From: Aquisphaera giovannonii | Lineage (GTDB): Bacteria; Planctomycetota; Planctomycetia; Isosphaerales; Isosphaeraceae | Direction of reading: 5' to 3' | Assembly: GCF_008087625.1 (NCBI RefSeq) | Contig: NZ_CP042997.1 | Location: 8,618,001-8,682,000, forward strand | Length of the DNA stretch: 64,000 nt | Shown here: in pieces, positions 3,366-55,890 of the stretch | Layout of the letters: every line of letters begins with the position of its first letter | Numbering within the stretch: the first letter of the stretch is position 1 | The notes under the pieces: generated by a model | What the model was told of the DNA's origin: nothing | Databases searched by the model: none | The model's input: only the letters and a program-made list of their open reading frames with translations | Made by a program: the position numbers and the translations under genes

Positions 3366-4171
3366 CGGAAGCTCTCGTCCTCGGTGGGGAAGGCGCCGCC
3401 GCGGACGTCCCGCACGTACTCGGCGGCGGCCTGCTTCATCTGCTCGCCGAGCTCGGCGTAGCGCCTCGCGAACCGGGGCCGGAATCCGTCGGAGAGGAGG
3501 CCGAACATGTCGTGGAGGACCAGCACCTGGCCGTCGCAGCCGGCCCCCGCGCCGATGCCTATGGTCGGTATCGGGATCTCCGACGAGATGGCCGCGGCGA
3601 GCCGAGCGGGGATGCACTCGAGGACGACGGCGAACGCCCCCGCCTCGAAGACCGCCCGCGCGTCCTCCCGGAGGGCATCCTCCTCGCGTTGCACCTTGTA
3701 CGAGCCGAGCCGGCGGATCGACTGGGGGGTCAGGCCCAGGTGGGCCATGACAGGGATCTCCGCGTCCACGACCGCCCGGATCGTCGCGGCCATCCGCCGG
3801 CCCCCCTCCAGCTTCACGGCCTGGCAGCCCGTCCCCTTCATCACGCGCCCCGCCGATCGGATGGCCTGGCGGGGCGAGACGTGGTAGGACAGGAACGGCA
3901 GGTCCGCCACGACGAGCGCCCGCTTCGTGCCCCGCGCCACCATCTCCGAGTGGTAGATGATCTGCGGGAGGGTGACGGACAGCGTCGTGTCGCGGCCCTG
4001 CACGGTCGTCCCCATGGAATCGCCGACGAGCAGGCAATCGACGCCGGCCGCGTCGAGCAGCCGCGCCGTCGGGTAATCATAGGCCGTGATCACCGCGATC
4101 TTCCGGCCCTGCTGCTTCCAGGCCGCGAAGTCCGGGACCGTGACGCGACGCTCTTCACTGGCCATGGCCAC
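3362..4171 (-). CDS. panB: 3-methyl-2-oxobutanoate hydroxymethyltransferase (ketopantoate hydroxymethyltransferase)
   Basis: PanB transfers a hydroxymethyl group from 5,10-methylene-THF to alpha-ketoisovalerate, giving ketopantoate for pantothenate and coenzyme A. The 269-residue length is normal for the family. Visible signatures are AYDYPTARLLDAAGVDCLLVGDSMG near the N-terminus (metal-binding aspartate), VKLEGG, MAHLGLTPQS and IGIGAGAGCDGQVLVLHDM near residue 200. It overlaps the upstream glycosyltransferase gene by 17 bp and the downstream pterin dehydratase by 4 bp, so the three genes form one transcription unit. A second ATG at 4165 is also possible. No panC or panD is nearby. Confidence 0.95.
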   Translation of the reverse strand: MAMASEERRVTVPDFAAWKQQGRKIAVITAYDYPTARLLDAAGVDCLLVGDSMGTTVQGRDTTLSVTLPQIIYHSEMVARGTKRALVVADLPFLSYHVSPRQAIRSAGRVMKGTGCQAVKLEGGRRMAATIRAVVDAEIPVMAHLGLTPQSIRRLGSYKVQREEDALREDARAVFEAGAFAVVLECIPARLAAAISSEIPIPTIGIGAGAGCDGQVLVLHDMFGLLSDGFRPRFARRYAELGEQMKQAAAEYVRDVRGGAFPTEDESFR

Positions 4172-5669
4172 CGGCCCCGCCCCTTCCGCGGCTCTCGAGT
4201 TCGGCGATCAGGACGCTCGGCGTGTCCTTCACCACCTTGTATCGTGCCCGGATCGTCCGGTGCAAGGCGTCTCGCGCGGGGTCGGCCGGGCCGGACGCCA
4301 GGTCGGCCACGTACCGCGCCCCGCGTGCCCGGTAGAACTCCACCAGGTCCGCCGGGTCCAGGGCGTCCCGCGTCGGGGCCCCCGGCCATTCGGCCGCCGC
4401 ACGGGCCGCCGCCGAGGGCGTCCGCTCCAGGCGACAGCCCCGACGGTCCGCCTGGTAGAGGAGCGGCTCGGCCGCCACCAGCCAGTCGCCGCCCGGGACC
4501 GCTCGCCGCACCTCGGCGGCGGCCTCCTCCAGCCCGGCCCACTCGTCCGGCGTCCGCCACGTCGTCCGCGAGAAGTATCCGCACCCGGCCAGGAAGGCCG
4601 CCGCGGCGAGCCACGCCGCGGCCCGGCGGGAGCCCGCGTGCCGCGCCCAGAGCCGGCCGATCCCCGCCGCGAGGGCGGGCGCCAGGGAGAGCCAGTAATA
4701 CTCGTGGTGGAGCTTCGCGCCGAGCAGCGCGAGCATCGCCAGCGCCGACGCGGCCCAGGCCTTCCAGAGGTCCCGGGGCTCGGGCCGGCGGGCCCCGTCC
4801 ACGCCCCCGACGGACCTCGCGGCCACGCCCAACGCGCCGAGGAGGACGCCGGGCGGGCCGAACGCGCGGACGAGCAGGAAGCGGCCGACCTGGCGGATCG
4901 TCTCCGGCCTCGCCAGGGCCGACAGCCCGACGACCGCCATCCAGATCGCGCGGTTCTCCGCGGAGGCCCGCGATCCGCTCGACGCGATCAGCCGCGGCAC
5001 CCAGGCATACCAGCACGCCGCCGGGACGATCGCGGCGGCGGCCAGCAGCAGGACGGCCCTCCGCCGATGGCCCGCGATCACCAGGAGCAGCGGCACGATC
5101 GCGAACGCCCCCGTGACCTTCGCAGCCAGGCCCGTCGCCAGCAGGGCGAACGCCGGTGCCCACCAGCCCCTGGCCCCTCGGCTCGCGCGGTCGGCGCACT
5201 CCAGGCCGGCGAGGACGCCGCCCAGCATGAGGGCATCCGGCTGGAACGCCCTGCCGTAGCGGAGCGTGACCGGGAACGCGCAGAAGGCCACGAGAGCGGC
5301 CGCCGCGGCGGCATCCCCGTCCCGCCGCCGGACCAGCCCGCAGAGCCCCCAGGCCGCCATCGCGGCGGCCAGCGCCGAGACGCAACGCCCCGACGCCTCC
5401 AGGGCCATGCCGGTCAGCCGGCGGAAGCCCACGACGATCGCCTCGTAGACCGGGGGCTCCACCACGAAGTAATTCGGGAGTGGCGCGGTGTCGAGCGACG
5501 GGCGCAGGAAGCCCGATCCGCGGTCCAGGTTCCGCGCCACCATCGCGGTCGGGATTTGGCGGCCGACGTAGTTCTCGACGATCGGCTGTCCGGCGAAGGC
5601 CATGCGGATCAGGGCGGTGGACAGCACGAGCGAGGCCAGGAGCAGGCGGGGCCGAGGCGTCCCCCGCAT
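4155..5669 (-). CDS. Integral-membrane glycosyltransferase, GT39/ArnT-like
   Basis: About 504 residues with many hydrophobic helices rich in Ala, Leu and Gly. The N-terminal extramembrane loop (GQPIVENYVGRQIPTAMVAR) and the following segment resemble the dolichyl-phosphate-mannose-protein mannosyltransferase/ArnT family, which uses polyprenyl-phosphate sugars at the membrane. The start at 5669 (MRGTPRPRL) directly precedes the first helix; a further in-frame ATG at 5720 would add a hydrophilic 17-residue tail. The 3' end overlaps panB by 17 bp. Acceptor and sugar are unknown. The short C-terminal soluble domain could be substrate-binding. Confidence 0.7.
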   Translation of the reverse strand: MRGTPRPRLLLASLVLSTALIRMAFAGQPIVENYVGRQIPTAMVARNLDRGSGFLRPSLDTAPLPNYFVVEPPVYEAIVVGFRRLTGMALEASGRCVSALAAAMAAWGLCGLVRRRDGDAAAAAALVAFCAFPVTLRYGRAFQPDALMLGGVLAGLECADRASRGARGWWAPAFALLATGLAAKVTGAFAIVPLLLVIAGHRRRAVLLLAAAAIVPAACWYAWVPRLIASSGSRASAENRAIWMAVVGLSALARPETIRQVGRFLLVRAFGPPGVLLGALGVAARSVGGVDGARRPEPRDLWKAWAASALAMLALLGAKLHHEYYWLSLAPALAAGIGRLWARHAGSRRAAAWLAAAAFLAGCGYFSRTTWRTPDEWAGLEEAAAEVRRAVPGGDWLVAAEPLLYQADRRGCRLERTPSAAARAAAEWPGAPTRDALDPADLVEFYRARGARYVADLASGPADPARDALHRTIRARYKVVKDTPSVLIAELESRGRGGAGGHGQ

Positions 5670-5878
5670 GCGCAGGCCGCTTGAACATCCATCATCGCCG
5701 TCAGGACCATGGGCGTGCATTTCGCGGTTTCTTCAAGGACGGCGTGGAAAAAAATTGAAACGAGCGCGGGCAGATGGCAGGATAGCCGGCCAGGTCACCT
5801 CTTCTCTTCTATCCCAGAGCGTCAGGGAACGATTTCGTCCCATATCCCGCTCGCGTCCTTTCAACGGGAGGAAGCACC

Positions 5879-39726: not shown

Positions 39727-39768
39727 GGGAGCGTGTCCGTAGCTGGTGCTCGGCCTGGTCTTCAAAAC
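39727..39768 (+). repeat. Right attachment site (first 42 bases of tRNA-Sec)
   Basis: Identical to 23542-23583. The repeat ends within the 3' side of the anticodon loop or stem. The crossover therefore occurred inside the 5' half of the tRNA gene. Confidence 0.92.
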
Positions 39769-39825
39769 CAGTGAGGGGTCGCGCGAGCGGCTCCTGGTGG
39801 GTTCGATTCCCATACGCTCCCGCCA
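39727..39825 (+). tRNA. selC: tRNA-Sec (selenocysteine, anticodon TCA)
   Basis: A 96-base tRNA plus an encoded CCA. It has the 8-bp acceptor stem GGGAGCGT/ACGCTCCC, the anticodon stem-loop TGGT-CTTCAAA-ACCA (anticodon TCA, reads UGA), a long variable arm (about 39771-39797) and the T arm GTGGGTTCGATTCCCAT, as in bacterial tRNA-Sec. Its presence implies selenoprotein synthesis in this organism. The first 42 bases are shared with the left junction of the element. Confidence 0.95.
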
Positions 39826-54482: not shown

Positions 54483-54814
54483 TGCGGCCCGCAGGATTCG
54501 AACCTGCAACCAAGGGATTCAAGGGCCCCCGGGTTTCCCCGAGGCTTGGACTATCTCATCCTCCGCCGAGGTGGCGGAGGCCGGGCGCTCTTGGGCGGGG
54601 GTTATCGTTGGGGCTCACCCCGCTAGTCTCTGAACCTTCCTGGCGACCATGGCCCTGCCAGGCTTGGCTGCGGATTGCCCTGCGCGGGCGACGGGATTCC
54701 TCCCGGACCTGCGTTTAGGTTCCCCGCAATTCACCCGGTTCGCAGCGAGGGGTTGCCCCCTCGTGCCACCTTGATCCTGATGAGTCCCCTGCTCTGCCGT
54801 TGAGCTAGGGCCGC
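54483..54814 (-). tRNA. tRNA with anticodon CAT (Ile2 or Met), split by a group I intron
   Basis: Exon 1 is 54814-54780 (GCGGCCC ... GGGGACTCAT), exon 2 is 54519-54483 (AATCCCTTGGTTGCAGG ...). Joined, they give a 72-base cloverleaf: acceptor GCGGCCC/GGGCCGC, anticodon stem GGGGA/TCCCT with loop CTCATAA, T arm GCAGG-TTCGAAT-CCTGC. The intron lies directly after the anticodon. The body resembles tRNA-Ile(CAU), which needs lysidine; elongator Met cannot be excluded. CCA is not encoded. Confidence 0.88.
54520..54779 (-). ncRNA. Group I self-splicing intron (IC3-like)
   Basis: 260 nt inside the tRNA gene. On the minus strand it has the P4-P5 pattern AATTGCGGGGAACCTAAACG, the P7-P3 pattern AAGGTTCAGAGACTAGCGGG, the second P7 strand GATGAGATAGTCCAAGCC, and a terminal G. 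These match the well-studied Azoarcus tRNA-Ile intron by position and sequence. No open frame for a homing endonuclease is inside. Confidence 0.9.
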
Positions 54815-54930: not shown

Positions 54931-55890
54931 TCAGGATTCGACGGAGGCGAACTGGTGCGGATCGTCGGCCGGGACGAACTGATTGGGATCATCGACGATC
55001 GACTGCACCGTTCCGCCGTTGAGCGCCGGCTCGGCGTCGGCCGCGGCCCGCTTCCGCTGGACCTTCGCCAGCTTGATGTTTCCGGTTATGCCGACGTAGG
55101 AGAACCCCTTGATCACCCAGTACGTCGGGTCGAGCTCCCACCAGTCGAGCCCGTGGCGGGCCGAGGTCTGGAAGGCATGGTGATTGTTGTGCCAGCCCTC
55201 CCCGTAGGTCAACGCGGCGACCCACCAGAGGTTCGTGGACTGGTCCCGGGTCGCGTGCGTCCGGTAGCCCCAGATGTGGCTCGCGGAGTTCACCAGCCAC
55301 GTCGTATGCAGGACCAGGATCGTCCGCAGGAAGCCGCCCCAGACCAGCCAGCTCCAGCCGCCCGCGGCGTAGAGCAGGCCCATCAGCGCGATCGGGAAGA
55401 GGATGTGGTAGTTATCGATCCATCGCAGCACCGGATCCTTGTACAGGTCCGGGGCCCACCGCTTGTAGTAGGCGGCGGTATGACGGGACGTGTCGTCGAC
55501 GACCATCCACCATCCCATGTGGGCCCAGAAGAAGCCCTGCAGCGGGGTGTGGGTGTCATGCTCGTCGTCGGAGAATGCGTGATGCCTGCGGTGATCCGCG
55601 ACCCAGCCGATCGGCCCGCCCTCGGAGGCCATGGTGCCGATGATCGTCAGGGGGTATTCCAGCCACCTGGGCCTGAGCGTGAAGCTGCGATGGGTCAACA
55701 GCCGGTGATACGTGAGGCAGATGCCGATCCCGCCGGTCAGCCAGTGGAGGAAGAGGCAGATGGCCACGGCGCTCCAGGAGAAATTGGACGGCAGCAACGC
55801 GAAGGCGGCGCCCACGTGCAGGGCCCCAATCCAAATAATGGGGATCCACGAAGTCCGCGGAGCCTGGGTTTGTACGGTCGTCGTCGTCAT
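54931..55890 (-). CDS. Acyl-CoA/fatty-acid desaturase, delta-9 type
   Basis: 319 residues with the three histidine boxes of membrane desaturases: YHRLLTHRSF (about residue 62), DHRRHHAFSD (about 98) and EGWHNNHHAF (about 231), and four membrane helices between them (WSAVAICLFLHWLTGGIGIC and others). It introduces a double bond into fatty acids at a di-iron centre. The last 60 residues are acidic. It lies downstream of the intron-bearing tRNA on the same strand order but is a separate unit. Confidence 0.93.
   Translation of the reverse strand: MTTTTVQTQAPRTSWIPIIWIGALHVGAAFALLPSNFSWSAVAICLFLHWLTGGIGICLTYHRLLTHRSFTLRPRWLEYPLTIIGTMASEGGPIGWVADHRRHHAFSDDEHDTHTPLQGFFWAHMGWWMVVDDTSRHTAAYYKRWAPDLYKDPVLRWIDNYHILFPIALMGLLYAAGGWSWLVWGGFLRTILVLHTTWLVNSASHIWGYRTHATRDQSTNLWWVAALTYGEGWHNNHHAFQTSARHGLDWWELDPTYWVIKGFSYVGITGNIKLAKVQRKRAAADAEPALNGGTVQSIVDDPNQFVPADDPHQFASVES

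Follow-up and report, generated by a model that had tools for sequence, protein, structure and literature searches.

A group I intron in the tRNA-Ile2(CAU) gene of Aquisphaera giovannonii and across the Isosphaeraceae

The IC3 intron of Azoarcus BH72 interrupts tRNA-Ile(CAU), the same tRNA and the same place after CAU as the intron of Aquisphaera giovannonii described here. The two also share a GUG guide, small size, the lack of an endonuclease, a P2 capped by a GNRA loop and a P9 capped by GAAA. Between P7 and the 3' strand of P3 (P3'), however, Azoarcus has only a few bases, where the A. giovannonii intron has a 29-nt hairpin. The cyanobacterial tRNA-Leu(UAA) intron, another old tRNA intron kept through a lineage, differs in both the tRNA and the insertion site.

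Group I introns have a limited distribution in bacteria, and crystal structures exist for the Azoarcus intron, according to a review in which planctomycetes go unmentioned (PMC3984707). A tRNA review of 2014 gives the host groups as cyanobacteria and alpha- and betaproteobacteria (PMC4033280). The tRNAscan-SE 2.0 report describes introns in the tRNA-Ile2 of Acidovorax and Burkholderia, and counts 36 bacterial genomes where group I introns conceal an fMet or Ile2 gene (PMC8450103); likened by description only, the A. giovannonii locus is of the same kind, a group I intron in tRNA-Ile2 hiding the gene from tRNA finders. Introns go unmentioned in a comparison of four Isosphaeraceae genomes (PMC5352709). 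No paper on planctomycete tRNA group I introns was found among the papers listed from the open literature, a search that covers few subscription papers and is not proof of novelty.

The interrupted gene lies on the minus strand of the window, the whole stretch of 64,000 nucleotides that was analysed, and its features are collected in Table 1. A sequence-only reading had given the same span, and its account of the layout stands: the exons read on this strand form a tRNA with a CAU anticodon, and the intron starts directly 3' of that anticodon and is 260 nt long. The CCA end is not encoded in the 3' exon. That the insert is a group I intron is borne out by the RF00028 covariance model, which matches positions 54792-54527 of the minus strand with 55.7 bits (E 1.9e-11, cmscan of the 64-kb window; gathering score 50), and by covariation among 26 aligned cores. 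The model R1, built from those 26 cores, gives 187 bits at the locus, the window itself being one of its 26 sequences. As had also been claimed, there is no endonuclease gene. The longest stop-free stretch in the sense frames is 54 codons, and the two ORFs of at least 80 aa that overlap the intron lie on the opposite strand and have no Pfam match at E up to 1.

Table 1. The interrupted tRNA-Ile2(CAU) gene and its surroundings, in window coordinates
Feature	Position	Strand	Basis or remark
Interrupted tRNA-Ile2(CAU) gene	54483..54814	-	
5' exon of tRNA-Ile2(CAU)	54780..54814	-	anticodon CAU at its end (54782-54780); strand read
Group I intron, 260 nt, last base G	54520..54779	-	RF00028 55.7 bits; covariation in 26 cores
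3' exon of tRNA-Ile2, begins AAUCCC	54483..54519	-	strand read
Internal guide sequence GUGG (P1), pairs with UCAU of 5' exon	54766..54769	-	sequence
P3 5' strand CCGGGUG	54732..54738	-	core alignment and fold
P7 5' strand GACUA, guanosine-binding helix	54624..54628	-	RF00028 alignment; invariant in alignment A1
Hairpin GCGGGG / CCCCGC between P7(5') and P3(3'), 29 nt	54595..54623	-	40/40 family introns
P3 3' strand CGCCCGG	54581..54587	-	core alignment and fold
P8 (CCUCC / GGAGG and loop)	54560..54580	-	core alignment
P7 3' strand UAGUC	54549..54553	-	RF00028 alignment and core alignment
Fatty acid desaturase gene, conserved neighbour, outside intron	54931..55890	-	Pfam PF00487

RF00028 matches 84 of 397 genomes of the class, and 43 of the 45 genomes of Isosphaeraceae. 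Because the match in two of the 43 (G016 and G165) is a tRNA-Lys intron, the tRNA-Ile2 intron is counted in 41 of 45 family genomes, always at the same site, with one copy (G017) cut by a contig end. R1 finds the same 41 genomes, including 25 of 26 good genomes and 20 of 21 genera, matches that are partly built in since 22 of the R1 sequences are family members. In the four family genomes without a tRNA-Ile2 intron match (G008, G019 and G165, which are 64-77% complete, and G016, at 96%), no tRNA-Ile2 was recognised, with or without an intron. When one mismatch is allowed, the 5' exon end matches at 8 places in G016, 6 in G019 and 5 in G165, all 19 outside tRNAs, and at none in G008. A 21-base junction pattern allowing up to three mismatches revealed no uninterrupted tRNA-Ile2, and hence no empty site, in any of the 45 genomes; its single match (in G003) lies outside any tRNA. 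Some Isosphaeraceae carry a second group I intron, in the anticodon loop of a tRNA that reads as tRNA-Lys(UUU) (L080-L082, L084, L086, L090, L091, L101, L143). Its core is different and, in those read, has no P7-P3' hairpin.

Altogether 41 introns were delimited, 40 from the family, including that of the window, and one from G048, a planctomycete of another family. Across 910 cells of the 26-core alignment, pairing in the helices P3, P4, P6a, P7 and P8 and in the extra hairpin reaches 99.1%, compared with 31-49% in slid controls. Double-sided changes occur at 12 of 35 core pairs, a number reached in none of 500 shuffles. P8 shows such changes in three of its five pairs, the last pair being unformed in 5 of the 26 sequences. 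A minimum free energy fold of the window intron recovers P2, P3, P8 and P9 unaided (z -2.45). A GNRA-capped hairpin precedes P3 in all 40 delimited family introns, and a GAAA-capped hairpin follows P7 in 37. All 40 end in G, which the delimiting search pattern itself demanded. P5 is short by eye in the window and most of the alignment, with no P5abc extension, and some relatives have longer P5 arms. To judge by sequence, the catalytic core of the window intron is intact.

All 40 delimited family introns have the guide GUG, complementary to CAU. On the other side, P1 amounts to only four pairs, two of them G-U, and no clear P10 helix was found in the window intron. We infer a two-step, guanosine-initiated self-splicing reaction. 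The last four bases of the 5' exon, UCAU, would pair with GUGG of the intron to form P1, and a free guanosine bound in P7 would cut the RNA after CAU. The freed U would then attack after the terminal G of the intron, joining the exons as ...GGGGACUCAU-AAUCCC... to give a normal tRNA-Ile2. Maturation of the tRNA, CCA addition, conversion by TilS to AUA reading and charging would follow. Self-splicing is plausible for the Isosphaeraceae intron because the group I intron of Bartonella tRNA-Arg(CCU) splices both in vivo and in vitro (PMC7717549). A rather doubtful further possibility is that pairing of the guide with CAU keeps the anticodon out of reach of methionyl-tRNA synthetase for as long as the precursor is unspliced.

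The interrupted tRNA combines its CAU anticodon with G1-C72 and A73 and does not have the initiator form. Its exons resemble E. coli tRNA-Ile2, and the joined anticodon arm is that of uninterrupted tRNA-Ile2 genes in two genomes of the family of G048 (L211, L213). It is therefore read as tRNA-Ile2, the decoder of AUA, and not as an elongator tRNA-Met, an identity drawn from sequence likeness and from the presence of a separate Met-like gene rather than from an isotype model. A whole-genome tRNA search gave 86 matches. ARAGORN reports five CAU genes, of which two are initiator-like, one is elongator-like (L024) and two are odd; none of them resembles Ile2. A search for the 5' exon end that tolerated one mismatch hit four places in the genome, of which only the window locus is a tRNA, and the junction pattern has no match in this genome. 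The searches for CAU genes, the exon end and the junction thus gave no tRNA-Ile2 gene besides the interrupted one. RF00028 likewise finds one group I intron there and no second. A single TilS gene (151 bits, cut-off 93.6) is present, and C34 of this tRNA would presumably be converted to lysidine by its product.

Several other tRNA-like loci were observed along the way. The two odd CAU genes lie in two dense arrays of divergent tRNAs (L061 and L062, at 3.085 and 6.719 Mb of G000:C1), and one of the initiator-like CAU genes is also in an array. Within the window there is a tRNA-Sec gene at 39727-39821 (77.1 bits). A 96-base tRNA-Ala(GGC) called by ARAGORN at 5079-5174 is not supported by Rfam at threshold; it lies inside a likely ORF at 4155-5720, and the call is probably wrong.

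The suggestion that all copies of this tRNA may need splicing holds for tRNA-Ile2(CAU), whose single gene is interrupted. It does not extend to AUA reading as such, since a tRNA-Ile(UAU) gene is present as well (L003, G000:C1:6033549-6033621, ARAGORN), which could be a second, unusual way to read AUA. The further suggestion, that the intron could tie translation to splicing conditions, is a conjecture. Within the genus, G002 has a relative of the UAU gene at 95% (L235), which ARAGORN also reads as UAU, and G001, the third genome, has no match. The three next-best matches, in other genera, are tRNA-Val or tRNA-Arg, and the remaining ones are short or do not exceed 82% identity along a long stretch. 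AUA itself is rare, accounting for 13 of 14,144 codons in 29 window ORFs picked by length and GC pattern. The presence of the UAU gene in two genomes of the genus and the rarity of AUA would both fit an RNA that is group I-like but protein-dependent or partly decayed, with AUA read mainly by tRNA-Ile(UAU). Against this stand the intact catalytic core and the lack of a UAU gene match in G001 and, among the next-best matches, in other genera, and we consider it unlikely. Because of the same lack, relatives should depend on splicing of the interrupted tRNA-Ile2.

The hairpin between P7 and P3', together with the loop motif GUGAG..AAC.AUA, occurs in all 40 delimited family introns. It shows no double-sided changes within A1, the alignment of 26 cores. 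What supports it as a helix are the compensated arms of relatives outside the family: where the window has GCGGGG/CCCCGC, the tRNA-Asn introns have GGUGGU/ACCACC and GGUGGU/GCCACC, phage introns have GGCGGG/CCCGCC and GGGCC/GGCCC, and one tRNA-Leu intron has GCGAGG/CCUCGC. These pairs were read from the sequences, the MAFFT alignment A2 having misplaced the tRNA-Asn segment and one phage segment, so that no count is given for A2. The hairpin may brace the guanosine site, by analogy with P7.1/P7.2 in phage Twort, which are reported to brace the guanosine pocket (PMC1995217).

A pattern made from the hairpin motif matched 35 stretches in genome contigs. Taking the labels as given, 31 of these are Isosphaeraceae, other planctomycetes or unspecific, and the other four come from three MAGs labelled Proteobacteria, Myxococcales and Deltaproteobacteria, all tRNA-Leu by our reading. 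The Proteobacteria- and Myxococcales-labelled MAGs belong to one phylum, in which 8 of 329 genomes match RF00028, and six of the eight are tRNA-Leu introns with the hairpin. The same motif as in the window intron is carried by tRNA-Leu(UAA) introns of that phylum (L150, L160, L243, L244, L247, L248) and of the Deltaproteobacteria-labelled MAG (L168, L177). They are the nearest intron lineage found to the window intron, yet differ from it in the tRNA and, by our reading, in the site, which is 33/34. In L247 the 5' strand of P7 reads GCCCCUA in place of GAGACUA, so this copy is possibly inactive or carries a sequencing error. Two viral contigs also match the pattern (L179, L180), with no tRNA on the viral stretches examined. 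L180 encodes part of a major head protein (phrog_9953, 145 bits), with a homing-endonuclease-like ORF without Pfam match close by and seemingly two introns close together. BLAST of the window intron against phages and plasmids gave short weak matches only, and BLAST of a tRNA-Arg intron (L193) against plasmids one short match.

Outside Isosphaeraceae, RF00028 matches 41 of 352 genomes of the class. By eye the hosts are tRNA-Ile2 at 33/34 (12 loci), tRNA-fMet (5), tRNA-Leu (7), tRNA-Asn (2) and rRNA, a tally that leaves out L129, L134, L136 and L137 and takes L093, L094 and L098 as looking like rRNA. Five genomes of one genus with weak matches (G095, G195, G299, G317, G344) are outside the set read, and a sixth of that genus (G128, L131) is included. 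In G048 an intron (L057) lies exactly at the window's site, but it is IC3-like and without the hairpin, so that the site 3' of the anticodon of tRNA-Ile2 has been filled at least twice. IC3-like introns occur in tRNA-Ile2 of other Planctomycetia at a different site, U33/C34 by our reading (L107, L112, L114-L117, L123, L126, L127, L130, L132, L133). In tRNA-Asn(GUU) of other Planctomycetia two introns (L095, L104) have the same P7-P3' hairpin, and at least six tRNA-Arg(CCU) introns in other planctomycete classes (L193-L196, L198, L201), again by our reading, have a related hairpin motif. R1 was also searched over the phylum with six candidates scored per genome, and misses there therefore mean little.

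These comparisons bear on the subgroup. Two profiles were built with the hairpin cut out, one from 23 planctomycete introns without it (IC3-like) and one from 17 introns with it, neither containing the family; high scores of introns with the profile they helped to build are expected. Candidates in which the pattern found no core were dropped (3 of 26 for the IC3-like profile, L105, L131 and L129, and 1 of 18 for the hairpin profile, L247). The window core scores 12.0 bits with the IC3-like profile and 62.7 with that of the hairpin lineage. Across the family introns the medians are 11.6 and 55, and 40 of 40 prefer the hairpin lineage. The Azoarcus core, in the sequence used here, has the opposite preference, 69.8 for the IC3-like profile against 40.9; the IC3 label of that profile is our own, checked only with this sequence, and does not derive from published subgroup models. 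For the intron of T4 nrdD (IA2) one profile gives -0.6 and the other no score. It too has extra structure between P7 and P3', but its insert is longer and reads as two hairpins. IA2 introns have an extended P9 and a pair of hairpins, P7.1 and P7.2 (PMC4227781), whereas the window intron has one hairpin and a simple P9, and an IA2 assignment was rejected on these grounds. The standard IC3 label was rejected as well, from the hairpin in all 40 family introns and the profile test, and with it the description 'IC3-type' in the sequence-only reading. On the profile scores, including those of T4 nrdD, the window intron is neither a typical IC3 nor an IA2 intron.

It could still be an ordinary IC3 intron of the Azoarcus kind, shared with proteobacteria through recent transfer, in which the hairpin is a local insertion. 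The small size without an endonuclease and the letters around P6' and P7, which resemble IC3, agree with this, as do the site and CAU tRNA, which are those of Azoarcus. So do the tRNA-Ile2 introns reported for Acidovorax and Burkholderia (PMC8450103). Yet even with the hairpin removed all 40 family introns side with the hairpin lineage, the hairpin itself is in every one, introns of tRNA-Asn, tRNA-Leu and phages have it too with compensated pairs, and presence through the family beside a conserved neighbour speaks against recent transfer, which makes this account quite improbable. We tentatively raise, as a possibility that is itself rather doubtful, an undescribed group I subgroup whose mark is one conserved P7-P3' hairpin bracing the guanosine site. 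Its members would have colonised phage head genes and, in planctomycetes and Myxococcota, at least four tRNA genes (Ile2, Leu, Asn, Arg), and in Isosphaeraceae would have become fixed and essential to tRNA-Ile2 maturation; the comparison set for this lineage is one without the tRNA-Arg introns of Agrobacterium and the tRNA-Ile2 introns of Burkholderia.

The exons are identical in 30 of the 41 delimited genes, with intron lengths from 252 to 416, and the core distance averages 0.235 over 26 introns. Of the 40 other family loci searched, 30 have the desaturase gene (PF00487) next to the tRNA, and the 10 where it was not found include some with short flanks; the G048 locus does not have it. On the other flank, the Band 7 protein of the window had no match at any searched family locus. 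A tree of 44 cores separates the 40 family rows from four tRNA-Leu introns by a branch with full support. Genus labels change 20 times on the intron tree (minimum 19, shuffled mean 34.9), and 25 of its 41 inner branches have support under 80. Intron and desaturase distances are modestly correlated (Spearman 0.27 over 26 loci; 15 of 2000 permutations as high).

The conserved neighbour and the clustering by genus suggest one old gain before the family diversified, followed by vertical descent with the locus. Of the two origins that had been proposed, old inheritance or transfer between distant bacteria, the former is thus upheld within the family, by presence in 41 of 45 genomes, the neighbour, the genus clustering and the lack of any empty site. 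Repeated horizontal invasion of this one site across many Isosphaeraceae could draw on the different intron in G048, on the weak support inside the tree and on the sporadic, mobile behaviour of which such introns are capable (those in tRNA-Arg of alphaproteobacteria are reportedly sporadic, going by the title of Paquin 1999), but is very improbable in view of an intron without endonuclease in 20 of 21 genera, with the desaturase beside it, clustering by genus and no empty site. Because it has no endonuclease, the intron is probably immobile, and its persistence would be due to the rarity of precise loss. The locus is very probably best explained by a group I ribozyme intron that interrupts the single tRNA-Ile2(CAU) gene and was gained once, before the family diversified, and inherited vertically since.

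The interrupted gene is absent from the ARAGORN output for the window, and for this reason tRNA-Ile2 can be missing from the annotation of these genomes. With two sites and at least two kinds of intron, tRNA-Ile2 in Planctomycetia offers a test case for how such introns choose their targets. The ~40 orthologous ribozymes of the family, whose exons are nearly frozen while the introns diverge, bear on why introns stay, on the order of splicing, lysidine formation and charging, and on the role of the hairpin between P7 and P3'. For the Isosphaeraceae themselves, a single-copy tRNA gene serving a codon in use appears to have been interrupted through the whole history of the family.
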